DNA of 64,000 nucleotides. It comes from Neckera pumila (Eukaryota; Streptophyta; Bryopsida; Hypnales; Neckeraceae). The notes under the pieces were generated by a model. The model had not been told where the DNA came from, made no database searches, and saw nothing but the letters and a program-made list of their open reading frames with translations. The stretch spans positions 1,256,065 to 1,320,064 of the forward strand of contig OZ018416.1 in assembly GCA_963969595.1 (NCBI GenBank). Direction: 5' to 3'. The position numbers and the translations under genes are program-made. This document shows, piece after piece, positions 31,201 through 56,770 of this stretch; position 1 is the stretch's first letter, and the number at the start of each line of letters is the position of its first letter.

Positions 31201-31221
31201 CAGGGTTAACCAAACGTCAGG
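31193..31221 (+). repeat. Left TSD and terminus of giant insertion
   Basis: The probable target duplication CTCAGGCC is followed by the terminus CAGGGTTAACC. The host reading frame (minus strand) resumes immediately outside it. Confidence 0.6.
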
Positions 31222-31556
31222 GCATCCGCGTCCGCATCCGGAAGTCCGGGGGATGGCGGATGTCCCGTGACATTTGTTTTTTTGGGTTTTTTCATTTTTA
31301 AAAAACAAAACACACCCGCCCAATGTCTAGTCCGCCGCAGTCGCAGAAACCGTCTGCCATCTCGTCCGCCAAAAATGGTGGACGGACCCACCGACCGCTA
31401 GACCGTCCGCCACGCCTCCAGTGTCCCGTCCGCCAAATCCATTGGGAAAAAGATGGTTGGACGCAGCGTCCGCACCATTGACTATCCCGACCGCGATGAT
31501 TCGATCCGTCCTCTTTGCCATCTAAATTCCGTCCGCCGTATTCTCAGACGGTTTAG
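31210..31556 (-). repeat. GGACGG/CCGTCC array 1 (left end)
   Basis: Many irregularly spaced CCGTCC, CGTCCGCC and GGACGG motifs make a GC-rich island in AT-rich DNA. Position just inside the hAT-like end suggests subterminal transposase-binding repeats. Ac, a known hAT element, has comparable subterminal AAACGG motifs. Confidence 0.7.
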
Positions 31557-31586
31557 GTGGATGTGTACAAATTCAAACTAGACATA

Positions 31587-32532
31587 TTAACCCCTAAAAG
31601 CCCGTTGTCCCTTCAGGGGACAAATGCGTATTCGGGCAGGTAGTAAAGTACCTATGGGCTGAAATTTTGTTGTGATTTTTTGAAATTTTTTTGGGAGGTA
31701 CAAAAACTGATTAGCTTCATGGGAATTTAATTTTTTGCACAATCAATGCTTGGGAACAAAATTTCTGACCAAACAAGCTCAAAGTAGGGGACGGCGGGTA
31801 GCAAAAAAAATTTGCATTTTTGCTTTTAGTATTTTTAGTATTTTTTCCCTCATAAATTATTTTCTTTTCTATCTAAAAGGCTCTGATTCATTTCATTTGG
31901 ATTTTTTATGAAAAAATTATGGACATTCTTGTTTTTTGGGCAATTAGAGCATCTTTTTGAAAAAAATTACTTATAGGATTTATTTTCGAATGCAGTTTTT
32001 CAAATTTTTCATTTTTTTTTTTTTTGCATGGTTAGATTTACTTGCTAGAACAATCTGACCATTGAGATTAGTGCATTTTAATTCCATCTAAAATATATGA
32101 ATATTTTAGATTTTCCTCCTATCTCGTACCTACTTCTACTTAACATTTTTTCAACAATGAAAATTCACGTTTTTTGAATATTATTTTTTTGGGTAGATTT
32201 TCAACTCAATTTTCCACTATAGACATTCAAAGCTCAAAACTCTGTAGTGTAAAAATTTTAAGTTAAAAATGTTCAAAGTCAAAAAGTCCAGTCCTACACT
32301 CCCACAATGTGCTGAAAAGTTTGTTTTTTTCACTTTAAACGTAGATATCTTGCAATCTGTGCGGTCAAAAATTCTGAAATTTTTTCCACACATTCTCATA
32401 CTAGTTATTTGTAAGATCCTATGATTAGATGTGCAAAACAAAAAAATTTAATTTTTTTTCACTCTTTGCTAAACAAATGGCAGTTTTGGGTGTTTTTTGG
32501 AAGAAAAAAGGTCTTGGGCCTTTAGGGGTTAA
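31587..32532 (+). mobile_element. TTAA-flanked TIR element, copy 4
   Basis: TTAA at 31587-31590 is followed by CCCCTAAAAGCCC. The right end GGGCCTTTAGGGG is followed by TTAA at 32529-32532. It is one of the best-preserved copies (938 bp between the TTAAs), has the inner GTCCCTTCAGGGGAC palindrome, and codes for nothing. It lies inside the giant insertion and is younger than it. Confidence 0.8.
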
Positions 32533-32614
32533 AGATCACATAGAAATACAAGACACAAAAATGTCACTTATAGATTGAAAGACTATAATGTTTCATCATG
32601 AGGGTGTTACACTG

Positions 32615-33383
32615 TTACTCCCTAAAGGATGAAAGCTTTTCTTTTTTCAAAAGAGACTTGAAACTCGCATTTCTATAAGAAACATCAAAAAGAATTGAAA
32701 AATAGTTTTTCTATCCATAGAATCTTATACCTCACTAGTATGACAATGTGTATCTGAAATTTTAGGATTTTTGATCGCAGATATTGCAAGATATCTGCAA
32801 TTAAAGTGAAGAAAATAAAATTTGATTCACACTGTACCGCAAGATTTTTGGACTTCCAACATTTTTAACTTTACGTTTCTACAGTACAGAGTTCTAAGCT
32901 TCTAATCTTCATAGAAGAGAATTGAGTTCAGAGTCTAGGAGAAAAATAAAGTTAAGAAAAAACTTATTTTTCATTATTAAAAAAGTTGTAAAACTAAAGA
33001 TAGAAGGAACATGTAAAATATTCATATGTTGAATATGGAATTAAAATGCACTAATCCCGATGGTAAGATTGTTGTAGCAGTGAAACTAAACTGTGTGGAA
33101 TTTTTTTGGGAGAAATTGTAAAAATTCCCGTAAAAATTCCATTCATAAATTAATTTTACATTTTTTATCTTTGTTGCTGCCCCCTCTCTCTTCTTTTGAG
33201 TTCATTTGGGCATAACTTTTGTTTTCAAGCATCGATTAAAAAAAATACATATATCCCACAAAGCTGATCATTTTTTCTATTTTGAAAAACAGTTAAAAAA
33301 AATATGGACAAAAATTCAGCCCGTCGTTACCTGCCCATTATCCCAAATGTCCGCTGTACAAACAATGGCCCTTCAGGGGTTAG
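32615..33383 (-). mobile_element. TTAA-type TIR element, copy 5, degraded
   Basis: The ends are TTAC-TCCCTAAAGGA on the left and CCCTTCAGGGG-TTAG on the right, so both target sites have decayed. The interior matches the family. It is shorter than its relatives (769 bp) and lies 82 bp from copy 4. Confidence 0.65.
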
Positions 33384-34333
33384 AATTGCTAAAGTAATTT
33401 GAAAGCTTTTAATGTTTTTTTCTCATGTCAAATTTAAATAGTTGGTCACCTTAGAATATGAGGTTAAAGTGCCTAACATGCATAACTGCAATGAACTTAT
33501 AGCTTATGAAAATATACTCCACCATTTTGTAAATGAATTTCTAATGTGTTTTCTTCTCCAAAATCTATTGTGAAAGAGGCGCATTTACAATAATGCTCAA
33601 CACTACGGAAAGTGAAGATTGCAATGGGTACCCTTGCATACACTCTTGAATATAAAAATCATAATCAATCATTGTCAGAATTGGATTTGACAATGCTACA
33701 AGTAGACTTCAAATAAAATGATGCAAAATTTTTCAATGAAGAACCAAAACTCATAAAAAATTTCAATTAGCATGTAATCTTATAAAATATACAGTTCAGT
33801 ATCCAAACTCATAAAAAAAACCCCTCCTTCTATTAATGATGAAAAAAAAATGCAAGTTCTTCATAGTTGTAACATGTACATCCATCAATACTTAATGTCA
33901 ACCTAATTTTGACCGAATTACCAAAAAAATTCTAAGTCTTTCAAGAAACTATCTTTTTTGTACTTTAAAGGTTAAAGATACACTCCCTAAAACTAATTCA
34001 ATACCCGTTTTCCTATTCCATCGTTACAAAATACATCATACAATTTGGACCACATCTTTACCAACGTCCAAACCAATATCCATCAACATCTAATATTGCT
34101 ATTCTCATTCAAGATGGACATATGTTCATTGTCACTAAAGACCGTAATCATTAATAATTGAAAATTAGGAATGCAGTAGAGAATTTGAAAAATATATCAA
34201 ATTTCACTTATATTATCATACAATGCTACTATATATATAACATACAGTTTGCACGCATACATCCGGCCTCTTACATTTACTAAATATTTATATACTTCCT
34301 GCTATATAGTATGCAAAACTATTCATATGAAAG
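33384..34333. other. AT-rich, downstream of kinase-like gene
   Basis: I see no gene, RNA or clear repeat here. It would contain the 3' region of the minus-strand kinase-like gene. Confidence 0.45.
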
Positions 34334-35827
34334 TCAAAAATGTTCATCAGGTACATGCCAACGAAAAGTATTGCAGAACCGATTAATGATGTGGGCTAAA
34401 CCGTCCGTGTTCTCCGGGCTTTTTTGACAAGACTGCTCCAAATAATCTTGAAACGCTAACGCCAATGTGTGGTGGCTAAACTTGCTCATACTGTCCGTTT
34501 CCATGTTCAACTTCCAGTACTCGTCGGACATGCAGTATCCGTTGATTTGCCAAGCTGTTTTGCAAACCGCATATTCCTCTGATGCACGTGACAAATTTGG
34601 AATGATAATTGCATCTCCATTTTTCTCGTGCAAATATACTATTTTGGGATTCATCCACCACCTTCGAGCCAAAGTCTTTTTCATGTCACTTGCTGAAGTG
34701 AACACATATAAGAATTTAGGCGGTTTTGCTACTAAGGGAGTCATTTTCCAATCATAAACTCCAATGTACACACTTGACTCTTCTTCTGGAAAGTGAAACA
34801 TGATGTTGTTTGGAGGGATATCATTGTGAAGGTGTCCTGCATTGTGCACCACTTGTATGATGTATAGTAATACCCATGCAAGTTCCGTCTGTTTCTTCCT
34901 AAACCGAGCTAGGCGGAAAGCATCAATCGTCTCTATATCCGTTGGATTGCTATACATCAAGTAAACATGTATGTTATCTGCAATAGAGCGATCAAGGTTC
35001 AGCATCTGTCGTAGTGTTCCGCTGTTCCACCAATACAAGTATCCTTCATACTTTGTTGCATGAACAGCAGCAAACCGTATAACTCCAACATGTGGAATTC
35101 TTACTGCCATTGACTCATTCTGGTGTTCCAATTTTACAAGCTCAAGATGTTTGATGTGTTGGTTGGATATCTTTGCTGCAAATTTCCAATAATTAGGAAT
35201 CTTTGGACAACCCTCAATCTTGGCCCTCCGAATTGTTGCATATCCGCCCTTCCAAACTTCTTCATCTTGCGGAATCACTCTTGCCATGTGAAGAAGCACT
35301 CTGAGATGTTGTCTACACTTATCCAATTCAGCAATTCCATCAGCGCTTTTCTACCAATGCAGAGGCCCTCATCTATTTTGGCTCTTTGCAAACGGAGCAG
35401 AACGGCTAACGAACAATTCAACTCTGAGAATCACTTGCTCAAAGCCTTCATCACTTGCACGGTGACGCTTCCCATACTTTACTAAGGTGTCCATTGCATT
35501 CCACAATGAATCTTGGACCCTGTTCGTCAAGAATTGGTTGAAGCCCTTCTTGTCTGTCTCTTGTTGCCATTCCGAAATGGCAACAAGAGACACTGCATCC
35601 ATGAATCATTTCCACATATCTGACTTGAATTTCTCCGGACCCTTTTCACCGTACCAAATATATTTGGTATGTAGGAACATAGTGCTTTCTGTCTTATAGA
35701 AGTCAAGTGTGCATTTAATCAAAAAACATTTCAGTGCATAAGAAGGCTGCTCTTTATCGGGTGCACTGCTCAATGGGCGCTGATGTTCCTTGTGTTTCTT
35801 CTTTGCTGCCTTCTTTGTTTGCACCAT
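34334..35827 (-). pseudogene. Protein-kinase-like gene, broken
   Basis: The likely start is the ATG at 35827 (MVQTKKAAKKK, a basic N-terminus). About 150 helical residues precede a kinase-like domain. In the 330-codon frame from 35326 there is a glycine-loop-like WKGGYATIRR (25-34), a possible lysine in FAAK (49-52), and the catalytic loop HLHNDIPPNNIMF (165-177, near 34822). There HND replaces HRD, the usual loop lysine is proline, and the metal-binding Asn is kept. DWK (192-194) stands where DFG is expected. One in-frame TGA (about 35603-35605) and frame changes near 35420-35330 break the gene. The missing lysine and the altered DFG suggest a pseudokinase even before decay, or a distant family. 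A GGACGG array lies about 220 bp upstream. I do not know its role in the element. Confidence 0.6.
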
Positions 35828-36039
35828 TGTAATGGACTTCTTTGTATGAATGAATATTTTGGAATTCCCAAAGAACTTTGCTTTCAAAGAAAATTACGCC
35901 AAAGTTTGAAAAAAAAGCAATAAGAGAACCTCCAAATCTGACTTTTATTTTCCCTTGGAAAGGAACCAATGGAGACTTAAGCCATGCTTAAGCCACCAAG
36001 CTTTCTACTCCGCTCTTGCAAGATGCAAGGGAAAAAACA

Positions 36040-36490
36040 AAAGTGAATAGCGGACGGGTCGTCCGCCCCTCTTATAGCTTGGCGGACGGCAAGGCGGTTG
36101 GACGATACTACATCGGACGGCCTAAATGAAGCACGGATCTGCCGTCTGCAAGATCCAACGGTCTATGAGTCAAGTCGGACGCTCGACGAATGCAGACGGC
36201 AAACGCGGACGGAGATCGCGGGCCATCGGACGGCAAGTGGCGGACGGAAGCTCCACCGCTCAGTCGAGGCAGTGGACGCAGTAGGACTGCTCGAACGAAG
36301 GGCGACTGCTTGAACGGCTATCTGTGGACGGAGGGGATTGGTCAGACGGCAGAGGGCGGATGCAAGGAGGCTACTTGGACGGCGAGCACGAAAGGCGGAC
36401 GGTAGGTTCCCGTTCGCTGCTTCACCGGACGGCGGCCACTTCTCCGACGCCAAATGACCAAATCTGACGGAGGGCATACGGACGACTGTT
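36040..36490 (+). repeat. GGACGG array 2, upstream of kinase-like gene
   Basis: There are dense GGACGG, GCGGACGG and related motifs on the plus strand, starting about 215 bp before the kinase-like start. It is inverted relative to array 1. Open frames through it are by-products of the biased composition. It could be promoter, transposase-binding region or both. Confidence 0.7.
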
Positions 36491-36670: not shown

Positions 36671-37868
36671 TTAACTCTGAAAGTCCCAATGGACCTATGT
36701 TGGCCAAAATGCAACTTCGGATAGGCTCCTAATTGTTCAAATCTTACTGTGATTATCTTAAACTTCTTCAAGAGCTTTAAAAATATGCAAGGTTCTTGGG
36801 AATATAATTTTGTGTGTCAATTGCTGTCCAGGACTCTGAGATTTGAAGTTTTAGCATAATAAGCCAAAAATGTAAATCAGCGGGCAGCCCAAATAGAAAC
36901 ACAAAAATTTATTGTAATTTTAGTTTTTAATTTTTCCTACAATGTTATATTTTTATGCACATGTAAACTTACGATTCATTCTATTTGGATTAGGGATAAG
37001 AAAGTTATGGACTAGTTTCAGTTTGAGGCAATCTAAGTAAATTTTTTTTAAAATTACTTGTAGAAGCTACAGCTCAATTTTCAATGCAATTTTCAAATTT
37101 TTTAGATTTTTTTTTCTAGAAGGGGTTATATTTTCTTTCTACAACAATCCTTACCATTGGGATTATTATATTTCAATTGTATTCTAGAGAAGTTAATAAT
37201 TTTGTTTTCTTGTTCAGTTTTGGATATATTTGTACTTAACAATTTCTTAAAGAATGAAGACCAATTTTTTCTTTCTTGATTTCTTTATTAGACTCTAAAT
37301 TCAATCCATCAGCATAGAAAATTTGAAATTCAAAAATTGTAGTGCCAAAAAAATAATACAAATGGAGATTACAATTATCTAAAATTGCAAGACAACAATC
37401 CAAGAAATTTTTCTTTCAACTTTGAATGCTAATATTTTCTAATCGCTACGGTCAAACTTCATGAAATTTTTACTACATCTTTTCAGATAAGTGAAACAAA
37501 AGATCCTATGATTAGGATTTTAGGGAGAACTGACAGCTCTATTGCCCCAAGTTTTAACCTTCCAAAAAACATTACAAGTCATTATTTCCCACATTTGATA
37601 AAATTTGTAAGTTTTTAATTCATATTTGCAATCGCAGGCCCCATATTAGTTACGAAATGTGAAGAAATATAAAATTAAAGCGGCACAAAATAGGGGGCTA
37701 TTTTCACATTTATCCTTTGATGGGACAATAGAGGGGTCAGTCCTCCCTGGCCCTAGGGTTACATTCTTGAAAGTTTGATTACTCTGCATTCTTCAGTGAA
37801 TGCATCAAAAATGGTAGTTTCATGTCATTTTGGGCAAAATAGTTGCTTCGGGACTTCATAGGTTCAAA
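36671..37868 (+). mobile_element. TTAA-type TIR element, copy 6, interrupted
   Basis: TTAA at 36671-36674 precedes CTCTGAAAGTCCC, a decayed terminus, and the interior follows the family order (for example CCTATGATTAGGATTT at 37505). The element is then split by the MITE at 37521-37752 and seems to end in a decayed GGGACTTCATAGGTTCAA. Confidence 0.6.
37521..37752 (-). mobile_element. MULE-type MITE, second copy
   Basis: This is an inverted copy of the 18908-19151 element: left end AGGGAGAACTGACAG with TCTATTGCCCC, right end GAGGGGTCAGTCCTCCCTGGCC-like. The outermost bases of the left terminus and the 9-bp duplication are not intact, so it is older or damaged. It is nested in TTAA copy 6. Confidence 0.75.
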
Positions 37869-38408: not shown

Positions 38409-38579
38409 CTACAATAGTCCATATACTTCACTCGAAATCTGAATCGGTGTCATCTCCCTGAGTGGAGCGATAGACCCCGATCCATAAACTCCGAGATATG
38501 GTCCTCCACCGTAGGTGTCTCCATGTCCGGTTGATGCACCTCCTTGTCCATAATTTCCATAGTAAGTGTCGTATGCGCA

Positions 38580-41500
38580 ATCTAGGCGTAAGTATCCTTA
38601 ACACAAAAAATGTGCTAAGATAACACGAAATATCGTCCCAGAGAATTTCAGGATTCTATGTAGCATATTCTAGCTATTCGGCTTTTCTATCTTTCTCTCT
38701 TCTCACCTACTCATCATTTTCTGGATACTTTCACAACCTGGAACATAAACTTTCCGGAATCCGGTTTACGTCTCTTCTTCCAATCCGGTTTTCGGTACCT
38801 CTGTTTTACCTTCAGAGGGTCCACTATTTGATCTTTTGAAGGGGTAGGGACTTCACCACTCTTGTTCTTCTATAATTCTAACAAACACAAATAACAACAC
38901 CCAAGTATTCAAGAGGTTGCAGCAAGACGAAAAGATCCGGATCCTCACAACTTCCGGATGGTGATTACAGACAGCAGATCACTCAGAAATACTTCACTCT
39001 CCCTTTCTACAACGACAGGTCTCAGAGTTCGGAACCAATACGAGGGTGTAATCTTTCTAGATGTTAGATGAATTCCGAGGTTGGCAGATCTTCCGGACAG
39101 ATGGGGGCTTCCTTGGGCGGGCGCTTACCTCTGCACGGCTTGACAACCGGACTCGCTTCCCCGCTACTCTATGATCCGGACTACTCTTCTGGTAATTTAA
39201 AGACATTGTGCGCAGCTCCTAAGTCAACAATCCAACAACATTACAATAGTACACTCTTGACTCAGACCGTATTCTCCTAAATCCGGATTCCTCCTCACCC
39301 GTCCTTTCCTTCCAACACCCAAACCACAGATAAACACAATCCGGATACACTGATAGAACGAAAATGCATATCCGAGGGCTCAGATTTCAAAAAGGGAATG
39401 AAATACAATTGAATATCAACTAGGAGGGAATGAGGGGCAACTAACTTGCCCGCCCTTAAAAACCCAAAACAAAACCAAAATCAACACCTTAAAAGCGAAA
39501 AAGGGCTCCCCACAAACCGGGGCAACCACACACACACACACCAAGGAAATCCCGAATAAACCGGAAAGTCATTATTCCTAAGTTTTCGGAAATTGGGCCC
39601 ACGCTTGGAATCCGGTTCCGGGACAAAACTATCTAAATCCTAATCCACCTTCTACAAGTAGTCCCCTTCTAACTACTTGGCCACTCGAGATTTCTTTGAA
39701 CTCTCGGCTCCCTGTTTGATTGCTGGCTTATTGGAACTCTTCGCCGGCGTCATCTTGGCAGCTTGAGGCGAATTCTGACGGGTCGCAGGAGACGTCTCCT
39801 CTTCCTCCGTATCTTCCTCAGATTTTGAGCCTGACTCAAACTCACCCGACTCGGAGTCTTCAATCTGTTGCTTCACCGGCTTCTTGCCTTCCGGTTTCCG
39901 CTTCTCAGACTTCCGGAGTTTCAGTTGCCTCTCAGGTTCCACCATCTCGAGTTCTTCATCCGGATCCGAGATCTCAGCCTCCACTATTTCCGTCCTCTTA
40001 TTCAGCCGGGTTTCCGGTCCGGGTTCCAATCTCGCCTCTGGAGCCGGATCTCCTAAGTCAATCAATTCTGTACCCCGTGTTGGTGACTGTTGCGATATAT
40101 GAGGGAATCCCTCCGGGTGTTCTCTTGCCGGATTTATCGTCCCCAAACCTTCTAACAAATCTCTCCAGATTGGCAATCTCTGCCCAGCCTTTCCAGTTTC
40201 CCTCGGAGATTGTGAAGAAGGGGCAAAAGTATTTACCGTGCCCCACTTCGGGAAATGACTCGAGGAAAGCACCTTAGGTATCTTAAACAGGGACTTCAAG
40301 CCTGGATCCTCTTGTGTCCCGGAAGTTCCGGCTCCGCGTTTGCCCGGGGATTCCATGAAGATATCTGGAAGTAGCCCAAAGTCGTCCTTGGCCACATCCA
40401 GATGACCCAGCAGCTGCCGCATATTGTCCAAAACGATCTTCATCTTGGCCTCATAATTGACCAGGACTTGCAGCACTCTGGATCCGGTAATAATGCTGTT
40501 ATTATCGAGTTTCTTCGTGTAAAGCGCGGACCAGATGATCTGATGTTCCGGTTCTTCTACCAACACCTTCAAAACCCTGACTAACTTTAGGGCATCCGTC
40601 TCCTTCTTCCGGGCTGAGAGCGACTGCCCCTACGTCCAGTAGAACTTGTTCTTGTAGTGATCCCGTTCCTCCTTAAGCAGCTCGATCTGCTTGTCCTTCT
40701 CTTGGAGTAGTGCCGGATTTGGTCTCTTCCGGAGTTCGTTGAAGATCTGATCCGTCTCAATATTTAACTCCCTGGCGACGCCCGTGACCACTTTTGCCAT
40801 CTCGGCGTGCATCTTTCGGCACTGCACCATCCATCGGGTTCCGGCTTCATAGAAGTCGGATACATCGGAAGGTTCTGGTGATGGCTGGGTCACGTACGGA
40901 TTTGGTTCCGGCACGTCCAGACTCGTTCTTTGTGCATCTGGATTGGTGGTCTTCTGTCGCTTCTTCTTCTCTAGCGGCTTCGGTTCCGGATCCTCCTCTT
41001 CTTCTTCTTCTTCTTCTTCTTCTAGTGCCGCTTCTCCTGTCGGCTTCAACTCTTCCGTAAATCCGTACTTCAGGATCCGCATTCCGGTCTCATAGGCAAC
41101 TTGTTCCTGCGGGGTCATGAAATAAAATGATGATATATGTAGAACAAGTAAGTGCTGAGCGGACTCTGCTTGGCCTTGTTGATAGCCACCGCCATCTTCT
41201 TGACCTTCTGGTGGATTATGGTCGCCCAGTTCACGACCCGGCCCTCGATTGCTCCAAAAATCGTGTTTGCCACCGTAACTGTAATCCTTGTTGGCTTTTC
41301 CGGATATACGATGGGAATCAAGAAATTTAATAATCGCCTATGGCGCTCATCGATACAGTCACTAACGGTGAAACCCTCCTTGTGGTGCGGCGGTTTCTTG
41401 AACTTTCCTTCATAAAACTTATCCGTCCGGGTCGCATTTCTGGATCCCGACTGCTTCAACCCGTAAGTTTCCGCCCACATCCCTTCCGTCCAAGAGGCCC

Positions 41501-42200
41501 ACCAATCCCTTGGCATCGGCTCGAACTGGTTTGGCGTCCCCATAACCAACTCACAAAGAAAATCTTCACCTCTAACTGTCCAGGGGTGCCGAATGAACCC
41601 GATACACCCTAGTTTGAAGAGATCTTCCTCTAATTCTAAGCACTCAGCAGAGTCCAACGGAATGATTGGGTACAGGAGCTTGACAGAGGGAATAGTCTTC
41701 TGCCCCTGCGCCGATGTTTTCGCCATCTTCTTGACCTACAATCCGATGCAATCGGCACCCTCCTTTCCTTCTCTTCCTATCCGGTCTAACTCACTACTCT
41801 TTCACTCTTCTAAAAAAAACGTGCTTCAGAACCTGCAAGCACACACCTCCTCAAGCGGAAGAAAGAGGGAGAAAAACAAAAGACCCATGCGCTTAAGTAC
41901 CCGGCCAGTGACCGACATTCGTTGGTTCGGCCATTTAATGCGCCGCCATTGCAAACGGATCCCTAGTTTTCATAGGCCGGATCCCTAGTTCGTAGGTTGC
42001 CTGAATCTGAATCCCATTCCGGTTTCCGGATTCCGGCCAAAGTCTGTTTCTTACCTATTCTACAAGTTTTTTCAGGTCGGAACTTCTTGACTACCTAGTT
42101 TCTACTAAATGTTCCGGTTTGCGACTTCACTACTACAAATTTTTGAAAATATTTATGGAATCGATCCTAAACTAATCCGGATTTCTAAATATTGATATTG
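38580..42200 (-). mobile_element. 3.6-kb TCCGG-rich element, nested
   Basis: The segment interrupts the Gly/Tyr-rich gene. It has its own base composition, with many TCCGG/CCGGA motifs near both ends (38740-39610 and 41950-42180) and a three-part minus-strand coding region. TGCG occurs at both junctions but I could not fix the boundaries or a target duplication. A CACTACTACAAA at 42128 hints at a CACTA-type terminus; an LTR could not be shown. Confidence 0.55.
39673..41726 (-). pseudogene. Transposon-encoded protein, frameshifted
   Basis: Three consecutive minus-strand frames form one former protein of about 680 residues. The first part (41726-41115) has LGCIGFIRHPW, FYEGKFKKPPHHKEGF and IVYPEKPTRITVTVANTIFG. 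The pattern reminds me of an ORF seen in many plant repeat elements, but I cannot name the family. A one-base shift at about 41116 leads into the second part (41118-40630), which has an acidic run of ten glutamates and a coiled coil. An in-frame TAG (40630-40632) separates it from the last part, which continues in the same frame and ends basic (39673). The C-terminal half looks disordered. No reverse transcriptase, integrase or DDE core is visible, so the element is probably non-autonomous or the ORF is accessory. Confidence 0.55.
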
Positions 42201-43489
42201 CGTGTTCCCACAATAAGGACCTCTAAAAGTTGGAGGGGAAACTAGAAGATTTTGTTCAGACAGTCCTCCAGTTGAACCACCGATATCATATCTTCCATAA
42301 TGCCCATACAAACCACTTGGAATACGTTCAGAATCGTACTGGGACCCGCCCTCGCTAGAAGGAGCATAGTGCGTGGTTCCATGGCTCCCTCCTCCGCTTC
42401 AAGAGCCAATTTGAGGATTGTTATCGTAGTATGAACCTCGCCCACTAGCTTGTGGATCACGTGTACTACAGTCACGTTCATATGACCCTTGATGTCCATG
42501 ATGTCTATATGAACCACTTGCACTGGATCCTGAATAGTATTGTGAGCCTCTTTGGCTAGAACCACCTGCAATGGATCCATACTAGTATTGCAACTTGTGA
42601 GCCCCCTTGGCTAGAACCACTGCGACGGTATGACCCATGTTCCTCTTGTTGTTGCCCACGGTCTTCTAGACTCCTACGCGTTGCTTCTTGCAGTTGCTGC
42701 TCATACTCAATGTCTTCTTGGCTTTTTTTACGCTCATGCCTTTTCATAGATGTCATGCGGGTTGCACCCTCATCATCATTGTCGCTGTCATCTGAGTATT
42801 CATCCTTGGCATCTGGCATCATTGTTGCAGAAAATCCAAATTGGCCTCGAATGGACCACTCCGGCATGCAATCGCTTAGTTGAGTCCAGCTTGTATAAAT
42901 AGTTGCTTCACTGCAATTCAAATTGGTCATCAATTTTCCATAAATGGTGCACCAATCCACATCTTTATGGAGTACAATATCCGCCCAAACTATGGCCATA
43001 TTGGAATAGTTCATGATATTCGGTTTGGAGTCACATATATTAGCATTCCGTGTTACTTCATTGTATCGATGGATGAAGTGTTTGCTCAAGCACGACAACT
43101 GTACACCTTCCCAACAAAGAACTTGTACAATGGCGCATTCTTTTGGCCAAATTTTGGCGAGGTGCGTCATTTTCATGTACTTCTTGCACGTAGTGCAAGA
43201 CCAAGTTTTTTTGGATGACAACTCCCATCCACTTTTTGCTACACAATTCAGGTTGGCCCAATTGTCCCAATTTATGTCTTGGGACTTGCCCTTCTTACTA
43301 TTTTTGAGGGTTTATTGCGAAGCATGGTGACCTGATTTAAATCCTCTTTCTTGATCACCAATTTCACATGAACTTCTCCAATGTGCAAACGAAATGCTTC
43401 ACAGTTACAATAAAAAACCCTTACGTACTCACTTGAAATAAACTGCGTGAAGCATTCCCACGTTCAAGCCCAACCGTTTGCGCACCTGA

Positions 43490-44030
43490 TCGGAAGGGAC
43501 GCGCAGAGCTGCAGATTGAAATCGGGCACTGGATCGTCCACTCCGGGAGAGAAATGGTTGTAAAGAAATGAGCCGACCGCCCCGCTATTTATTCAGTCCA
43601 ACAGCGGACAAGCTGAGGCGGACGCGTACGATCGCATCGGACGGCCTAGAGGTGGACGCCAGGATCCAGCAAACCGAAATCGCCATCCGATGGATCGCAT
43701 GGCCACCGACAACGGGCGGACAGACCAACATACAGAGAAAGCGGACAAAGGGGAAAGGCGGACGGCGAGGACAGGCGGACGGAAAGCAAAGGTGGACGCG
43801 GAACGCGAATTGCGGGGCCGGCATCAATTCATCAAAGTGGACGGAGGCGTCACCATGGTGGACGAAGACATCAGAAACGCGGATGCAGACATCAGACAGT
43901 GCAGATGGGGGCATTTGCGAGGCGGACGGAGGCGTTGAAAAAGCGGACGGAGGCGTCAGACGTCGCAGATGGGGGCGTTGGCAAGGTGGACAGGGCCGCC
44001 TTTGGTCGAACCTACGAAAAAGGCGGCCCA
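43490..44030 (+). repeat. GGACGG array 3, upstream of CKKY gene
   Basis: There are many GGACGG, GCGGAC and GGTGGACG motifs, including AAAGCGGAC and GGCGTCAGAC. It starts roughly 165-245 bp before the start of the minus-strand CKKY gene. All the open frames across it share the same monotonous composition and are not genes. Confidence 0.7.
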
Positions 44031-44610: not shown

Positions 44611-44724
44611 TTCGGCTGTGACAAAATTTAGGTTAGGGGTCTTTGGGATAAAACAAAACAAAGGATAAAACTGCCAAGGATTACAAGGATATAGAGTCTA
44701 CGGGAAGAAGTGTATTAAGTAAAA

Positions 44725-45389: not shown

Positions 45390-45720
45390 TGCTTCCACGG
45401 CGGACGGAGTATGTCGAACGGAAACATTGGTCGAGAGGGTGGACGGAGAAGGCGGATGGAAATGGGCGGACGGACCCAGACGCACATGGTGGACGCTGCG
45501 GCGGTTGGACGGAGCCAAAGTGGATGTTGTGGTGCGGAGGGTGCCGAAGCGAACGCGCAAGCTGTCGGTTGTCTCCGAAGCGGACGAGAAGGCGGTCGGT
45601 TGTTGCAGAGGCGAACAGCACGTCCAAGGCGCGTCCGCATTGGCCGTCCACCGGTTCGGCACCAAACTGCTTTTAGGTCTGGTGTCGGATGGTTATAAAG
45701 GCGGACGGTCACTTTCATTT
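45390..45720 (+). repeat. GGACGG array 4, upstream of CKKY/RING gene
   Basis: There are dense GGACGG/GCGGAC motifs on the plus strand, ending about 230 bp before the start at 45940. With array 3 it forms a head-to-head arrangement of two arrays and two paralogous genes. Confidence 0.7.
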
Positions 45721-45939: not shown

Positions 45940-48900
45940 ATGGCCGCTGAGGATGCTGGCGTGCTACAAGTACTAATGGGATGACTTCAAGAGGTGACCA
46001 AAAGAAAAAGGGTAAAGTGAAGGGGTCCCACATGGGCTTCACTATGAGATTTTAGATGATCCTAACATCCTGGCGGAGAGCCATTGAGAGGAAGAGGAAG
46101 TAGCATATTAGAACTTTCAATTGTGCAAGAAATATGAAAAAATGTACCACATCAACAAGTTGTGGCCTCGGAATGCACACGAATGTCAAACGAAGGATTT
46201 TTGTGTTAAGCCAAAGACTTGCACAAGTCCGCACTTTGTCCATCAGTCGGATGAGGTGTGGAAGGCCCTATTTTCGGACAAGCCAATGAGTAAGGGGTAC
46301 ATAAACTATAGCCTGGCCTCCATGGTGTATGCAGAACTTTTATTGGCACGGAAAAAAGACTGGAGTACGTTTCTAGTGACAAAAAAGGATCTACTTTTGC
46401 TTCCTAACAACTAGAAAGATATTCATGATTTGTGGGTGAAGGAGGCTGAACCCGCTGAAGCAACAAAAGTGAACAATACTTCCTCTGCAGTTGTGCACCA
46501 AAAGGAGGTCATGCCTCCCACAACATTTTCTATTTTCCCACCAAATCAAGTTACCAGCATGGATGAGCCAAGCATTGCTTTTAACAAGCGGGACCTTGTG
46601 AAAGCATGTGGTGACCCTTCTTTGTCAGGAAAAGAGGTCACTGATGAATAATTAGCAGAGACCAATGTTACAATTACAAAGATTTTAGACAGCGGTGCTC
46701 TAGATCCCTTGAAATTTATAGGTGGTTATCTCGGTGAAGTAGGTACACCCAAAATGCCGCAAAGCCCAACACAAAGTCCGATCATTCAAGAGCAACTGTT
46801 TGGAACCAACGTGGAGCAGCCCAACAACCTGGCCACGGAGCCTACCATGGGGGAAGATGAGATGCGGGGAAAGTTTCCGCACATGGCGTTTCACTTGTCA
46901 TCCATAAACGTGCCAATAATGGAGGCAAACAAGATTATGAAATATGCACAGGGACTGGACGACTTCCTTCAACTTGCTACCAAGTGAAGAATATTTGAAA
47001 GACGGCGGGTAGATTGCAGACTGCAGTCCGCCCCACCGAGGCGGGCTCTAGCTGTACGCCACCCGCACCAGCATGTAAGCTGAGAGACATGCCGAACATT
47101 GCTCTGGCATTGTCATGTAGTGCAAACTGGCTCGTTGAACTCAGGGTTGTCTTGTCAGACAAAATTTTGGATTTTGGCGTCTGATAGACGTCTGATGTCG
47201 CATATTATATGACAATTTGTCTGTCTGACCATGTCTAATAAGGCCCTCTACATAGCTGACTGCTCGTAAAAATCTCATTTCAAGTATGATTCAAAATTCA
47301 AAATGTAATAAGTGTTAATTCAATTGAGACACTTTAATAAAATGGAACTTTAATATGTTAAGATTTATGAAGAGATAATTCTTTAATTGAAACTTATTTG
47401 AAAGTCAAATTTAAAGTTGACTTTATTAGACAGACAAGGGGTCTATTCACTCTGCTGGACGTCAAACAAATTTTGTCTGTCATATTGTTTGTCTGTCAGG
47501 GAAGACAACCCTAGTTGAACTTGAACTTGGCCCGGTGATTGCGGAGCTCACCCATAATATAGCAGCTATTTCTCCCGAACTGGTAAAAGGTGCCCAGGGT
47601 TTTTTGCATTCCACCGACCAAATAATGCCAACTTACAAGGCCACAATTGAATTAGAGGAAAGTTATCAGGTGTTGCGGAAAGAGTGCAACGTCTTGGAAT
47701 AGCAAGTGCAATTTTTGAAGGGTCAAAACAAAACCCTGAGAGCCCAAAACGATACAAGACAGTCTTCCCAGCCAACTCAAGAGAGCGATCAATTGTCTCT
47801 TCCTTTAGACAAGAGTAAAGGAGTTGATGCACCTGACACATTTACAATGCATAATGGTAAAGAGTGGGAGCAGCTGAAAAAAGAATTGGTGGAAGCAAAT
47901 CGAAGAAATAACGTTCTTCAGTCCAGGTTTAGGATAAAGTGCACAAGATCATGGATGAATGTAGGCCTCAGAGTAGATCAGAGTCTCAATGGTTGGAATG
48001 GATACAACAACTCCAAAACAAACCCTAATTAGTATCCCGAGCAATGAATGGGCTTTTTAGACTTGCAAAGAATTTGGAATACGAATGCAAGATCGTGGAG
48101 GGCTTCTTGAAGAGGTTCAAGAACAAGTTGGAACAACATCCATGGGGATCTACAAAAATTACATCATGGGGAAACATGGAGGTTATGTTTGAGCAACTGA
48201 ATCGCATAGAAAAGGGAGGGAAGAAAGACATCAATTGGGCCTTGGAACTAGAGGAGGGATGGGTCCCTTACCAAACACTCTCAGCATACATCAACAAGAA
48301 GGACAAGACACCGGTGCATGGTTTTGATGCAGGTCATGAAATGTTGAAGGGTGTTTATGCCATTTGTCAAGAAAGTTTCAGCCCTGAAGGAGCCATAGGC
48401 ATAGGCCACTGTCACCACATTTTCCACGTCGCATGCATCATTACAGCATCACATTTTAGCTCGGCTTGTGCACAATGCCGTTCTCCTTTGAGCCCTAGGT
48501 TCTACAAATTGTTTGGTCTCTTGGAGGTTATGCCTCCCAGCCATGAATACAATAGATGGACCCTTCCACTAGACCAAGCGCACTACAAATTTCAGAATTA
48601 CCAACATTGAAGAAAAACATTGAATTGGGATCCAACAGAACAAAGACATGCTTTATACAATAAGTCTGAAGAACAGGTGGATTCCTTCATGTAGATGACC
48701 CAAAACAGAGAGGTTAAGTTATGGGCCCATTCAATTGAAGATTTAGAGGCTTGTGAATTATTCTGTCGCAACATGGGAGGGCATTGGAGCGTGCAACGTA
48801 ACAAATTCTTCTGCTTTCTAGAGAAGCAGGTGCAGAAAGGAAAAGATGACCAATGGGTAGAGGTGGAGGCTTAAAAAGAATTCAACAATCAATATGCAGC

Positions 48901-49410
48901 ATATAACCATATTTTGATAGGCAGAGCCTTCTTTTTGTCGAAGTTGGAAGAAGCTGCAGAAGTCCGTCTTCTCATGGACGTAGATGTGGAATCAAACAAT
49001 GGGGACCAATTAGTGGAGGTAGCCGGGATGTTTGACAAGAGGATTGGCGACATCATAACTCAATGGAGAACGTTCCTATTGGAAAGAGAGACCCAAGGTA
49101 CCGTGTTGCAAATCAAAGTGATGACGAAGCGGTGAACGGATTGCTATTGAAGGTGGAGTCTGCTTTAAGAGCTTTGAAGTTGAAGTCAGTGGATTTAACT
49201 CCTAAACAAAACAAGAAACGGAAGGCGGAAGATGACAATGACTACTCTCCGGAAGCAGCATGGCAATTTGTCGTTATTAATCGGCAGAGTAAATTCATAT
49301 GACACCCGGATGTCGAAAGTCCAGGGGCCGTGGCTTGCCAAGAAAGTCTGAAAAGCGCCGCTAAAGGAGGGCAACGCACCAACGAAGGGCCGTCTCATGT
49401 TTTGGAATAG
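45940..49410 (+). pseudogene. CKKY domain, coiled-coil, RING-H2-like gene, broken
   Basis: A likely ATG at 45940 leads to LCKKYEKMYHINKLWPR (from 46121), paralogous to the minus-strand gene at 43.2 kb. HF(V/I)H, a shared EV, a KP and a DW follow in both. A coiled coil runs through about 47560-47950. The RING-H2-like motif is at 48356-48479: Y-A-I-C, then C-x-H-x2-H-x2-C, then C-A-Q-C. The first Cys of the canonical set is a Tyr, so binding at one zinc site was weakened or lost. A charged C-terminal part runs to 49410. In-frame stops occur at 46412, 46649, 47700, 48026, 48608, 48692 and 48872, with frame changes near 46985, 47935 and 49115. A MITE sits at 47142-47513. If functional once, it could have been a RING-type ubiquitin ligase, but this is inference. 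Confidence 0.58.
47142..47513 (+). mobile_element. 372-bp hAT MITE with perfect 8-bp TSD
   Basis: The left end CAGGGTTGTCTTGTCAGACAAA and the right end (TTTGTCTGTCAGGG then AAGACAACCCTA) are inverted. GTTGAACT is duplicated exactly at 47134-47141 and 47514-47521. Subterminal TCTGAC/GTCAGA motifs recur. Removing the element and one duplication joins LSCSANWLVEL to ELGPVIAELT in one frame of more than 200 codons with no stop. The terminus shares CAGGGTT with the giant insertion. Confidence 0.92.
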
Positions 49411-50157: not shown

Positions 50158-50430
50158 AGTCCAGTTCACCACCATCAGCCCCGTCCGACAGCGGATTGGC
50201 AGTGGACGCATCCGACCGCATGTGCCATCCGCCACCTGCGGCCCCGTCCGCCACCGGAGTTGGCGTCCAAAGTGTCCGACCGCGTCTGACATCCAAAAAC
50301 GTCTTCCCCGTTCGCCACCGTCGGCCCATTTGACCGCAAGTGCCGTCCACCAGCACCTGCCCGTCTGACGAGAGTCACGGGACTTGCCGTCCGCCAGGTC
50401 CGTCCGCCGAGTCCGTCCAACCATTGAGAC
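50158..50430 (-). repeat. GGACGG/CCGTCC array 5, upstream of hAT gene
   Basis: CCGTCC, CGTCCGCC and CCGTCCAC motifs recur, ending about 295 bp before the hAT start. It stands to the transposase as arrays 2-4 stand to the cargo genes. Confidence 0.7.
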
Positions 50431-50723
50431 TGCAACGGGAAGTCCGTTTTCCTTCCCAACAATCACTTCCAGCTGAAGAGTATAAAGTGTGAGGAAGAAC
50501 TCATTTTCAAGCACTCCCGATGAACTGAATGCTAAGATCTCCAAGGGCTAGGTGCTGCAAATGAATTTTTGTGTCCCTTGCTTGGTGGTGTATAGTTCGG
50601 TGGAAGGGGGAGCCTTGTTTTGCAAGGCTTTGTGGAGGCATTGATTTAATCATTATTGACATTGTTTTACACAATACATACGATTTTTAATCTTTTCAAG
50701 ATTAAGGATTAGAACTGGTCAAG

Positions 50724-53700
50724 ATGAGCAAGGATTTTCCGGTTGGTACGGAGTTCCAGAAATGTGTAAAGTACAATGCAAGGCTTGCAAGTGTGTGTTT
50801 AGCAAGAAAGTGAGCCGTATATTGAGTCACTTGGGATATGAAGGCCCCTCCGGTTCTTGTGATACGGGAATAAGCTTATGCTCTTGTTTGACATCTGAAA
50901 TGAAAAGTCTATTTATTTGTTGCAAGGGGCTTTCCCACGAAAACCTATTGCGCATGGAATTGATAGCAACGACATGCCCATATCCGAAAGTGATCTCTTG
51001 AGGGCCCGTTCGGGTACACCGCGTTCTAAGCAAGAAGATTCATGCACAACACTGAAAGAAGTTTGTTTGGGTTCCGAAAGTACACCATTGACGGAAACAT
51101 CCAATGAATGAGAGACTCCAAGGGCATTAAGCAGTAGACCTCCGAGTAGACCTCCTAGGACACATAGCAGTTTATCGGATGGCTTTCAAAAAGCCAATAA
51201 ACGCAAATTGCATGCAACGTAGGCCCATTTTTTTTATATAGCAAACATATCATTTTCAGTAGCTCAAAATCCAGCCTTCAAAAAAGCAGTGAAGATGACG
51301 GCTAAGTGTGCAAGGCCGTACACTCCACCCTCATACCATGATCTACGACATAAATTGCTTCAAGAAGCGAAGGTTGATCTTGCAAGGAAGTTGCATCGAA
51401 GAATTGAATGCAACGTGAGAAAGTTTGGAGCAACATTGTCCATTGATGGATGGAACTCAGTGAAGAATCGCCCATTGATAAATGCCATGCTCGTATCTTC
51501 AGTCAGTGAGCATTTTCTTGGATCCGTAGATACAAGTGGAGAAAAAAAAAACGTCGCCGTATCTGGCGGCTATCTTGGAAAAATTTATAGAGCAAGTGGG
51601 TCCCAAAAACGTGGTACAAGTGACTGCAGATAATACTAATGCAAACCCAGCAGCATGGAATTTGGTGTCGAGTAAATATCCACACATCTTCTTCCAAGGA
51701 TGCATGGTGTACACCTTGAGTTTGTTGCTCAAAAATTGGGGGGGGGACAAAAATGGATATCAAATTTAGTGAAGGATGTCGACCTTGTGGTAAACTTCTT
51801 CAAGAAAAGGCACATGCCTCTTGCTATATTTTGCAAGTACGAGACAAAATATAGTTTATTGAAGCCAATGAGAACCAAGTTTGCCTCTTATTTTTTTATG
51901 ATTGATCGCTTGTTGGAGGTGAAGATTGCAATGAGACAGAGTGTGGTGGACTCACAGCGAGTTACATACGTAAATACACTCAATGACAGCGGAAAAGACA
52001 AAGCACGCACGACGTCTCGGCAAGTATATAGTATTGTTGTGGTCGAACATTCTTGGAACCGTTGGATCAATGTGCAGGAATTGACCGCCCCAATTGTATA
52101 GGGTCTACGTGATTTGGATGCAAAGACACCGTGCATGGAGAAGGTATTGCACATTATGAGGAACCTAGAAGAACATGTCCTTTGTTTACAAACGGAGCCT
52201 TTTTGTTTGGATGTTGAGAAGGCACAACCGTTGGAGGCAGCATTCAAAAACCGACGCAAGAAGGGAGAGATTAATCTACATTATGCAAGAGCTCTCTTGA
52301 ACCCGTATCTTCTTCATGATAAACAACTAGCCAACGATTAGAATGCAACTGATTGATGTAAACGTGTTATAATGAAAATATGTGACCCCAAAGAGTACAC
52401 AACGGTGGTCTAAGAATTTGTAGCCTTTCGACATAGGGACCCTCCATTCCACAACATATTGGAGCCAGGTGAACAAATGCTGTCGACACACGTTTTGTGG
52501 GACTTTGAGGGGGCATGTGGAAAATTCATTGCTCCAATTGCAAAGAGGATATTGGTTCAACCGGTGTCATCATCTTTATGTGAACAAAATTGGAATAGCT
52601 ACTCCTATGTTCACAACAAATCTCGGAACAAGTTGACGACGGAGAGGGCAGCAGACTTGGTGTATATGTACAGCAATTCCAAAGTTGTGGCCGCATCAAA
52701 AGAGAAGGATGAAAAGAAGTGGTACCGTGACAATGTGGACTCCGAGGAGTCAGAGCCGGGGTCTGGTTCAAAGTTGGAAGATGATAGGCCTCACCCACTA
52801 GACGAGGTCCTGAACTCTGACATGGAAAATTTGCATGATGAATTGTACCGTAGTTCTAACAGAATCAATGAAGAACGAGGATGCAATGATAGAGATGCAT
52901 TTGAGTTTGGATCGGAAGACGAGAATGATGGATATAATCAGCGTGCATCTTCGATAGCCAGATTTGTGGATGGATTTGGATTTTTGAATAGTGAGAAGAT
53001 TCTATCAAAAAATGAAGATGCTTACGTGGAGATAGTGGAGGCTAATAGGACAATGATGTCCAATGGTGGAACCGATGGAATTGATGAAGTCATTTGGATT
53101 CCTGAGTCTTCGTCCACAAGAAAGGTGCAAGAGGAAGATAATGACAAATAAAATAAGGATGGAGGAGGTGACATGAAGGTCCAATATGAAGTCAGCAATA
53201 CAGAAGATGAATTTCTCTTGGCGTTGGTGAGAAAAAAACCTGCGGAACCCACTGCAAGAAAGGACAAATTGAATGAAGTGCATCAAAATGGTGATGGATT
53301 TCTGATGGAACATGGAAGCCCGATTTTTGCCAACCAAGGTAAAGGCAAGCAACAACTTAGGAAAGAACTACAGGGACGACCCTATAGCACTCCTCCACGT
53401 GCCCTATTTGGAAGCAGTAGCAGAACTTGGGATGGTTCGAGAAACTTAAGTTTTGAAAAAGGCTTGCCCAGATTCCAAAAAGAAGGTGCCTTCTATCAAT
53501 CGAAGTCACAGCATAGTATCATCCACCAATGATGATAAGGATGAGACCTTGGCTACAATGGGGCTTCGGAACGCTTCTCGCAGTGCACCACCACGACATA
53601 ACAGAAAATTGTCATCCTGTATGCTGCAATCTGAAAATGCAATCAAGATAACCATTCAGGTAGGGCACACATCAGGGAAACAGGAGGTCAAAGAAGGCAC

Positions 53701-54055: not shown

Positions 54056-56280
54056 TAGGGGTTGAAGGGATGCAGACTTAGGGATTTATGTGTGTATATT
54101 ACATGTACAAATAGCATGCAGTGGGAAAAGGTTGTTTTTATTGTTTATTGTAGCACTACCATGCTTGTTCATATAATAGAAAAATTTACAATTTTCTTTG
54201 GTGTGCAAAACCATATGGAAATCTCATCTCATTTTGACATCCATTTTATTTGGATGAAACAATTTTTTTTTATAAATATGTGTGTGTGTGTTTGTTTTAC
54301 AGCCTAATTTTTTGGGTACGCGTCTTAGGTTTAGGGATCTTTTCTTTTCTTTTTCAAATCCATATTTTGGTAATAAGAATCGGAGTTAAACATTTGGTTG
54401 TTTTGAAATTTTAAATTCCTTCACATCTTGTATATTTTTACTTTGACACTTGTGTTTATTAAAAAAGTTTCACTCTCAATTTTTTTGGGTAGTACTTCTA
54501 CATTTAGGTGAATTTATCTGGGTTTTTTTAATCCTATGTTGTTAGGGTTTGACTTTTGGAACCTTCCGAAAAGTTCTTCATATTTTTTCACACCCAATTT
54601 TTTTTGGCATTGTGAAAATTGGTTAATGACCATTTTTCCTTTCTTTCCATATTCTATGTTTTGGGATAGGTGTTTTTGGCTTAGGTCTTTAGGACTTTAG
54701 GTGAAATTTTTATTTTCCTTTCCACATTCATTTTTTTTTCCTAACACCCCAAGTTAGACACCACCTTTTGGTTTGGAATTTTTCATTCTTTTTCACATCA
54801 TGTACATTTTGGTTTGACACTTGGGTTGGTGCTGATGTATTCATTATTTTCCACATTCTATTTTTTGGTATAGCACTCTTTGGTTCAAGTTTTTTTTTTC
54901 TTTAAAACATTTTTTTTGTTGGGGGGGTTGGACACTTGGATTAGGGATAAAGTTTTGATTTCTTTCACACCCTATTTTTTGGAATAAAACACTTCGGTTA
55001 ATATGAATTTTCTAATTTCCATATTTATTGACATCCCAATTTTTGGACTACGTCTCTTTGGTGTAGGTTTGATTTATTTTTCTTCTTGTACCTCCTTCCC
55101 GGGGAGATCACTTAGTGTATTTATAACTAACCACGTGTGTTTAAGTGATTTTTTGCCCCCCTATTTACTTTTTAATGAACTATGGTTTCAACCTATAATT
55201 TTGAGCATTGTTTAATAAAGGCTATAGGATTTTATTGCCAAAAACTCCCAATTCAAATACCATATTAAATGATTTCTAGAGAAGGTTGAAAAATGAACTA
55301 AATTGGCATGTTTTTCAACTCAAATATTTATAGAGAATACATTTAGATGACCATTGCAACAATATTCAAGGAATATAAACTTTCAATAGAGTCATTTTTG
55401 AGAAATTTTTGTGTATTTTTTAAACAATTTTTTTTATATAAAATAGGAGTGTGAAAGTTATTTTCAGCTCTGCAGTGTATCTTTTTACTTCAAAAATTAG
55501 TAACTAATTATAATTAACAAATAAAATTATCAATAAGTCAAAACATAAACTTTCAAAGTAGGAAAATCTACTCATATTTTTTTCTTTTCCTTTTATTTAT
55601 ATTTTAGAACATAAGTTAGGGGGTCTAAAATCTTAACGCACGTAGTGCCTAATGGACCCTTTAAGTGATCTCCCCGGGACCTCCTTTTCTTTAAGTAAAC
55701 CTAGGATTCGAGTGTTAGACACCTGGGTTGGTTAGAAATTTTTTATTTTTATTCACATCCTATATATTTAGATTTGACACTTGGGTTGGTGTAGAAGTTT
55801 TGATTACTTTTCATACTCAATTTCATTTGGGGAAGAGTGCATCATTGAATTCCAAATTTTTCATTCTTTTTCACATCCTAAGGTTTTGAAGATTGCTACT
55901 TGGGTTGGTTTGAACGTTATTATATTTTTTTGCACCCTATTTTTTTGATAGGTGTTTTTTGGTTTATTGTAATATTTTTATTTCTACTTCTACATCCTTA
56001 TTTTTTTAACAAACCGGTTAGACACTTGGGTTGGTTTGAAATTTTCATTCTTTTTTACATCCTATATGTTTTGGTTTGACTCTTTGATTGGTGCAATTTT
56101 TTTGACACTTCAATTGGTGTGAAAGTTTTGATTTTTTTCACACCTTTTTTTTTTAGTTAAAATAGTTCACTCCAAATTTAGGAAAAAATTATCTAACCAT
56201 AATTAAACACATTCATATCCATAAGCAAAATAAATGCAGATCATATTTAAAACTGGAATCATATGAAAAATTTACCAATC
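54056..56280 (+). repeat. T-rich degenerate tandem repeat
   Basis: Variants of GACACTTGGGTTGG followed by TTTTTCACATCCTAT-like text recur between about 54430 and 56130 at roughly 90-150 bp spacing (for example near 54815, 55765 and 56025). It resembles a decayed satellite or subterminal repeat, and the T-rich strand is constant throughout. A 581-bp element is inserted in it. Confidence 0.6.
55098..55678 (+). mobile_element. 581-bp TIR element with perfect 8-bp TSD
   Basis: The ends are CCCGGGGAGATCACTTA and TAAGTGATCTCCCCGGG, an exact inverted pair of 17 bp. ACCTCCTT is duplicated exactly at 55090-55097 and 55679-55686. The 8-bp duplication points to hAT or a P-like family; the terminus is not the usual CAGGG. 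The interior is AT-rich with no coding region. Confidence 0.88.
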
Positions 56281-56339
56281 CCCTTAGTGTAGACCTTCAC
56301 CAAAATCTCGAAATTTGGCGCTGTTCATCTCCATATAAA

Positions 56340-56710
56340 CCACCCGTCCGACTAGCCGTCCACTAGGACTTGGGACGTCCGCCCAATCATCCAACAAAGT
56401 TCTGACCGTCCACCACCCCGTCCGCCAAATTCCGACCGTCCTCCCTCTCGTCCGCCAAAATTCTGACCGTCCACCCTCCCATCCACCGAAGTTCTTCCCG
56501 TCCGCCCTCCTGTCCGCCAAAATTCTGTCCGTCCACCCTTCCGTCCGCCAAAGTGCCAACCGTTCACCCTCTCATTTGCCAAAATCTCGACTATCGGCCC
56601 TCCGTCTACCAAAATTCCGACCGTCCACCTTCCCGTCTACCCTCCCGTCCGCCAAAAGTCCAATTGTCCGCCATTTTACTGAAACGCTCGCTGCGTCAGG
56701 ACGTCCGCAC
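56340..56710 (-). repeat. GGACGG/CCGTCC array 6 (right end)
   Basis: A regular run of CCGTCC-rich units about 25-35 bp long (CGTCCGCCAAAATTCTGACC and variants) lies just inside the right terminus. This is the most periodic of the six arrays. Confidence 0.72.
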
Positions 56711-56741
56711 GTCTAGTTTTTGGACGTAATTTGCCCCGGGA

Positions 56742-56770
56742 TGCAACATCCTATCAACCCTGCTCTTGCC
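56742..56770 (-). repeat. Right terminus and TSD of giant insertion
   Basis: Read inward from 56762 the terminus is CAGGGTTGATA, matching the left end at eight of the first nine bases. CTCTTGCC (56763-56770) is the probable target duplication and lies in the MULE coding frame (RQE). Confidence 0.6.

Follow-up and report, generated by a model that had tools for sequence, protein, structure and literature searches.

A 25.6-kb multi-gene insertion with hAT-type ends in the genome of the moss Neckera pumila, and related copies elsewhere in the same genome

The stretch of the Neckera pumila genome analysed here (the window; 64,000 nucleotides of contig OZ018416.1, designated C9:1256065-1320064) carries at 31201-56762 a 25.6-kb insertion bounded by hAT-type ends, which is very probably an old copy of a family of giant, multi-gene and formerly autonomous hAT transposons. 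The insertion lies within a SWIM/MULE-like gene and contains a protein-kinase-like gene, two genes here called Y and Z, a decayed hAT transposase gene and a nested segment with a further gene, X. An original prediction, made from the letters of the window alone, had proposed a hAT-like giant insertion with these boundaries; it is now confirmed that the ends are at these places, and the hAT assignment is supported by colinear giant elements at other loci, by 7/8 duplications flanking two further copies (c6 and c10) and by the transposase gene inside. Dispersed copies with the same ends, each in flanks of its own, duplications at three of the four copies that could be judged and uninterrupted relatives of the target gene show the transposition of a large unit. 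The genome searches for related loci covered G000, the genome to which the window belongs (339.5 Mb in 18 contigs).

Results

Ends of the insertion and the gene that it splits

The left end starts with CAGGGTTAACC at 31201 and the right end is TCAACCCTG, the last base of which is 56762. The outer termini form the inverted pair CAGGGTTAA / CAGGGTTGA, and the CAGGGTTRA inverted ends are of the CAGGG type of hAT elements. The pair is weak proof alone, as dinucleotide shuffling of the window gave at least one equally good pair in 32 of 200 cases. The flanking octamers CTCAGGCC and CTCTTGCC are equal at 6/8 positions in an ungapped comparison (P = 0.0073 against random octamers of the window), and an alternative left copy, CTCTCAGGCC, exceeds the right one by 2 bp; the degenerate duplication that had been described is present in either form. 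The features at the two borders are as follows.

29365..31192, minus strand: split gene, C-terminal-side part with a SWIM-type motif (alignments and SWIM match)
31193..31200, no strand: target-site duplication, left copy, either CTCAGGCC or, with a start at 31191, CTCTCAGGCC
31201..31570, plus strand: left end, CAGGGTTAA with a subterminal GTCCGCC-rich island (sequence and left-end genome matches)
56340..56762, plus strand: right end, a tandem array of GTCCGCC-type repeats with a 31-bp period, and TCAACCCTG (matched in c6, c10 and c11)
56763..56770, no strand: right target-site duplication CTCTTGCC (sequence)
56763..57200, minus strand: split SWIM/MULE-like gene, N-terminal-side part (joined-peptide and joined-flank alignments)

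When the two parts of the split gene are joined at a plain 8-bp duplication they are out of frame, and a left copy of 10 bp gives the in-frame junction VARQE-IYMLNTYDAKSVELWV; the offset of 2 bases between the flanks had been noted correctly, and only the 10-bp left copy rejoins the frame. The joined 89-residue peptide had 23 matches in the genome, two of which are the halves of the split gene itself. Six of the 23 matches extend over residues 1-87 or 1-89 of the query with an identity of at least 56%, and two of these six contain one stop. At two loci, L032 (C9:15913746-15914009, with a 448-aa open frame) and L033 (C1:27310257-27310514), the peptide alignment continued across the junction, where it has a one-residue gap, at 63-65% identity, and the joined flank DNA also crossed the junction, with identities of 67% (434 columns) and 65% (564 columns), respectively. 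As these relatives align through the junction, the two blocks are normally adjacent, which had been claimed without database searches; L032 and L033 are uninterrupted relatives of the kind at which the proposed search for an empty copy was aimed, and relatives with the two blocks apart were not seen in the genome search.

The proposal that the split gene is a MULE transposase stands only in part. A homologue, P0006, has a SWIM-type motif just under the Pfam curated cut-off (E = 0.0011; 18.9 bits against 19.6), and the search for a MULE DDE domain found none. The MULE label is therefore presumptive. A protein search with the split gene returned two proteins, both matching its C-terminal part only and leaving the junction uncovered, and no useful relatives were found in viral contigs.

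Related copies elsewhere in the genome

With window positions 31160-31400 as the query, at least 35 left-end matches were found in the genome, including the window itself (the match counts of this search are lower bounds). At least 34 are non-self, one of them a second match inside the copy c5. Sixteen of these begin no more than 4 bases from 31201, 2 begin further out and 16 further in; since left-end matches elsewhere begin there, 31201 is the true edge of the element. Copies were read by fetching 30 kb at six of the left-end loci, followed by an additional 1.2, 19 and 10 kb at c11, c10 and c5, respectively.

Four of the six loci hold colinear giant elements (c3, c5, c10 and c11), in which the colinear blocks of at least 600 bp are 80-91% identical to the insert. 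The copy c10 (C10:19531129-19575792; 44,664 bp) has both ends, its gene regions in the order of the window (kinase, Y, Z, transposase), and insertions of its own of approximately 16.4, 4.4 and 0.9 kb; its flanks, CTCAAGAG/CTCAAAAG, form a 7/8 duplication (chance 0.001). Both ends are also present in c11 (C11:2116787-2146773; 29,987 bp), which is without the transposase stretch 51885-53705 and has no duplication (3/8). The copy c5 is colinear as far as the equivalent of 49299 and c3 to 44037, and the right ends of these two were not found within the fetched sequence. The fifth locus, c6 (G000:C6:18810940-18811433), is a 494-bp miniature inverted-repeat transposable element (MITE) joining two giant-element ends, flanked by the 7/8 duplication CCTCATAG/CCTCATGG; its transposase may have been supplied in trans by the giant family. 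The sixth, c7, has a left end only in the fetched sequence.

Three fetched copies (c6, c10 and c11) showed the right end as well as the left one, and these are the segments with both termini that the original prediction had suggested looking for. The 8-bp duplication is acceptable in three of the four copies in which both ends were read (the window, c6 and c10, and not c11). The left end reads CAGGGTTGG in c3, c5, c6, c7 and c11 and CAAGGTTGG in c10; the right end reads TCAACCCTG in c6, c10 and c11.

The shared core and the later insertions

The kinase and Y regions are found in the window, c3, c5, c10 and c11; the Z region in the window, c10 and c11, and by DNA alignment in c5; the transposase region in the window and c10 and partially in c11; and the right end in the window, c6, c10 and c11. 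The features between the two ends are as follows.

31588..33382, no strand: foldback element with TTAA-like flanks, old, crossed by the colinear alignments of c3, c5, c10 and c11
34322..35887, minus strand: protein-kinase-like gene, full length, with 4 in-frame stops (tblastn of P0008)
36040..36490, minus strand: putatively promoter-like GTCCGCC island, rich in GC, on the upstream side of the kinase gene
37522..37752, no strand: MITE-like short inverted-repeat element, 84% like 18908-19147 (repeat comparison)
38567..42213, minus strand: nested mobile segment with gene X, flanks TAAG/TAAG, not at this place in c3, c5, c10 and c11
42140..43311, minus strand: gene Y, N-terminal domain shared with Z, with an acidic stretch and a G/S/Y-rich tail seen by eye
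43600..44010, minus strand: GTCCGCC island upstream of gene Y, putatively promoter-like
45395..45720, plus strand: upstream of gene Z, a putatively promoter-like GTCCGCC island whose motif is on the other strand
about 46030..49300, plus strand: gene Z, RING-like finger and N-terminal domain shared with Y
47142..47520, no strand: later insertion of 379 bp, not in c5, c10 and c11
50160..50460, plus strand: GTCCGCC island upstream of the transposase gene, putatively promoter-like
50690..53530, plus strand: decayed hAT transposase gene with a BED-like finger (by eye), DUF659 and the hAT C-terminal dimerisation region
about 55098..55678, no strand: later insertion, not in c10 and c11

Three segments, at 38567-42213, 47142-47520 and about 55098-55678, are later insertions, because other copies are without them at the same place, and their subtraction leaves a core of roughly 21 kb. 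In the colinear alignments, c3, c5, c10 and c11 pass directly from 38566 to 42214; the gene X segment is located elsewhere in c3, c5 and, in inverted orientation, c11. With four copies lacking gene X at that place, its candidacy as a part of the core was rejected. The caution in the original prediction, that several nested elements could be involved, is thus borne out for the gene X segment and the two smaller segments; the core with kinase, Y, Z and transposase is repeated colinearly elsewhere in the genome. The foldback element at 31588-33382 is common to c3, c5, c10 and c11 at one place, therefore the giant unit spread after gaining it.

The foldback position is also one of five places, inside and outside the insertion, at which members of a repeat family were observed (1794-2618, 4985-5809, 24855-25925, 31588-33382 and 36866-37515). 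The family has TTAACCCC-like ends and takes a foldback form at 31588-33382; a piggyBac-like duplication would be our guess.

Genes of the element

The directions of the core genes diverge from a centre near 44-45 kb, with the kinase-like gene and Y reading leftward and Z and the transposase gene rightward. In the transposase gene, DUF659 was matched above the cut-off in two successive frames (E = 2.1e-11 and 8.8e-14), with a frameshift within the domain, and Dimer_Tnp_hAT was matched slightly below it (E = 3.3e-4; 20.8 bits against a curated cut-off of 21.4). A BED-like C/H pattern at about 50690-50880 was seen by eye, with no Pfam match, and the D, D and E residues are presumably those of SIDGW, TADNTN and CEQNW, an assignment made by eye. 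No useful relatives of the transposase were found in viral contigs. No other transposon domains were found in the insert frames scanned; the scan was limited to selected open frames on the minus strand of 34300-36500, and reached 50200-50500 on the plus strand and 56400-56762 on both strands only where an open frame extended into them. Rfam gave no useful match. Both the transposase and the kinase reading frames are disrupted in the window copy, which makes its present autonomy unlikely.

Genes Y and Z share an N-terminal domain (alignment score 136, with at most 53 in 1000 shuffles), and of the nine pieces compared no other two gave z above 5. The RING-like finger of Z was matched with E = 1.1e-5, at 26.1 bits where the cut-off is 27.3.

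The window kinase-like gene is 54% identical to residues 24-539 of P0008, and its counterpart in c11 has an aligned stretch of 463 codons without a stop. There are 34 homologues, 18 of them with 478-542 residues, and K256, H371-N372-D373, N378 and D396-W397 (P0008 numbering) are invariant in 18 aligned sequences; we read K256, H371-N372-D373 and D396-W397 as the probable kinase lysine, HRD-like and DFG-like motifs. The Pfam Pkinase matches of the window gene (E = 0.0028), P0008 (1.2e-4) and P0009 (2.1e-5) were all below the curated cut-off, and the sole solved-structure match was a MAP kinase (E = 0.005). No useful relatives were found in viral contigs, genome contigs or plasmids.

Gene X has a reading frame at 41735-39673 with one frameshift and one stop, and its homologues are P0001-P0005. 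Its protein had no Pfam match, no solved structure was found, and neither viral contigs nor genome contigs gave useful relatives. The segment that carries it is a 3.65-kb mobile element with the imperfect inverted ends TGTCGTATGCGCAAT / TTGTGGGAACACGCAAT, and more distant X-like copies are present in c3, c6 and c11. The ratio of non-synonymous to synonymous substitution rates (dN/dS) of gene X was 0.13-0.23 in three pairs, and it was the only gene below all non-coding values. As a proof of cargo function dN/dS was rejected, since non-coding frames span the same range.

GTCCGCC islands at the ends and upstream of the genes

The heptamer GTCCGCC occurs in 30 exact copies in the insert (18 and 12 on the two strands) and in none in the other 38.4 kb of the window, and in 100 shuffles of the insert the mean was 1.0 and the largest number 4. 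The copies cluster in the two end regions and on the upstream sides of four genes, namely kinase, Y, Z and transposase. The six islands have a GC content of 0.55-0.64 and an observed/expected CpG ratio of 1.13-1.34, compared to 0.51 outside the insert. At the same landmarks, 40 copies are present in c10 and 38 in c11, with none in the 4,108 bp beyond c10. As the BED domains of Hermes bind subterminal repeats (PMC10368747), it is plausible that the BED-like finger recognises GTCCGCC. TATA-like words occur in all four gene-side stretches; they were rejected as promoter evidence, as 2345 of 5000 random windows also have one.

Other features of the window

Outside the insertion, an inverted-repeat family has three copies of approximately 69-72% identity (10776-11487, 21421-22157 and 62490-63110), and a 412-bp direct repeat of 79% identity has its two units 56 bp apart (26809-27220 and 27277-27688). 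A 154-aa stop-to-stop open frame at 16887-17351 has a signal-peptide-like start by eye and no Pfam match.

Discussion

Alternative explanations

The window copy could instead be a nested pile, in which an ordinary hAT element of approximately 6-7 kb, consisting of the ends and the transposase gene, was joined by later elements bringing the kinase-like gene, Y, Z and X. The gene X segment and the two smaller segments are later insertions of this kind, and the foldback and the MITE-like element also lie inside the insert. However, the positions of kinase, Y and Z agree in c10 and c11, and those of kinase and Y in c3 and c5 as well, and the motif of the ends repeats upstream of kinase, Y and Z. 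The best inverted-repeat and duplication pair around the kinase-to-Z region scored 18, against 16-19 for 30 control pairs, in a weak test whose positive control missed the true outer ends as the first choice. Taken as the origin of the whole insertion, such a pile is improbable; an old nesting that later spread as a unit could have been the route by which the giant element was formed.

Two hAT elements moving the host DNA between them, in the manner of the Ac macrotransposons, would also give hAT ends at a large distance, and a 28-kb case in maize left a modified 8-bp duplication (PMC9910405). This is very unlikely for the window, because the only CAGGG/CCCTG pair with a 6/8 duplication in it is the outer pair, the five other pairs that appeared when one changed end base was allowed include none that is strict at an island edge, and the interior is a gene set repeated in several copies. 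A segmental duplication or an assembly error imitating a mobile element would fit the flanks of c11, which have no duplication, but the flanks of the window, c10 and c6 differ from each other, each with its own near-perfect or imperfect duplication, and the insertion point is within a gene that is contiguous in its relatives, which makes this possibility equally remote.

Relationship to known elements

With hAT elements (Ac/Ds, Tam3, Hermes, Tol2 and the DUF659-type plant hATs) the insertion shares CAGGG-type ends, an 8-bp duplication and DUF659, as well as the C-terminal dimerisation region, subterminal repeats and a MITE derivative; the BED-like finger seen by eye would be a further common feature. 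Well-described autonomous hAT members are a few kb long and carry one gene. Ac has 4.6 kb (PMC3260210). The element described here is unlike them in that its core is about 21 kb long and holds three or more additional genes.

In the Ac macrotransposons of maize, hAT ends move 10.3-28 kb and a modified 8-bp duplication is found at the excision site (PMC9910405). They are comparable in that hAT ends move long DNA; however, there the 5' and 3' ends of Ac are placed around host DNA, whereas here one element has its own repeated gene set, and an inner strict-end pair with a 6/8 duplication, which a macrotransposon would have, was not found in the window. Pack-TYPE elements, including Pack-hAT, are likewise DNA transposons that carry other coding DNA, but they are non-autonomous and hold captured gene fragments (PMC8903248), whereas a transposase and full-length cargo genes are here in one element. 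Because the element has its own transposase region (in the window, c10 and partly c11), it does not belong with the Pack-TYPE elements.

Starships and Teratorn are also giant multi-gene transposons. Starships use a tyrosine recombinase and the fusion that forms Teratorn involves a piggyBac-like transposon, and neither is a hAT element; a tyrosine recombinase had no Pfam match in the insert frames scanned, which separates the insertion from Starships. ToxhAT (ToxTA) is a 14-kb cargo transposon once named hAT, and differs in duplicating TA; it has been reassigned as a TA-duplicating, non-autonomous and likely Tc1/Mariner element (PMC12506042). A 2019 review of giant transposons (PMC6431247) contains neither 'hAT superfamily' nor 'hAT transpos', and a 2026 review of plant gene capture (PMC13317346) has 0 occurrences of 'hAT'. 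A giant multi-gene hAT element was not met in the literature surveyed, most subscription papers lying outside it. We rate the giant multi-gene form as the new aspect, with the ends, the duplication and the transposase being those of a hAT element.

A possible mode of action and its significance

For the insertion as a copy of a giant hAT transposon, the following sequence of events can be proposed. Elements of the hAT type move by cut and paste and make 8-bp duplications. The hAT transposase would have cut and pasted the whole unit in this way, and length is no bar to hAT transposition, because a 28-kb Ac macrotransposon was excised in maize (PMC9910405). The BED-like finger, or another protein of the element, may have recognised the GTCCGCC repeats in both the end regions and the putative promoters of the genes, which could have linked mobility with expression of the whole gene set, and the targets of the kinase-like and RING-like proteins may have been the transposase or host silencing. 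Once inserted, the window copy decayed and gained further insertions, the largest of which carries gene X.

Going further, there could be a giant hAT lineage with a fixed accessory set, consisting of the kinase-like gene and the divergent pair of related genes Y and Z, the latter with its RING-like finger, with promoters built from the end repeats, one DNA-binding protein linking transposition and expression, and accessory proteins that counter silencing or control the transposase. We put this forward tentatively, at slightly less than even chances. If true, such a lineage would be the hAT counterpart of the cargo-carrying giants of fungi.

Elements of the hAT type are usually regarded as small, and giant gene-carrying transposons have been documented for other transposase classes. 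A genome of 340 Mb with a repeated, colinear family of multi-gene hAT elements would demonstrate that large gene sets can be maintained by the hAT machinery as well. With its motif common to the ends and the upstream regions of the genes, its kinase-like and RING-like genes and its MITE derivative, the case found in this window makes the use of accessory genes by DNA transposons testable.

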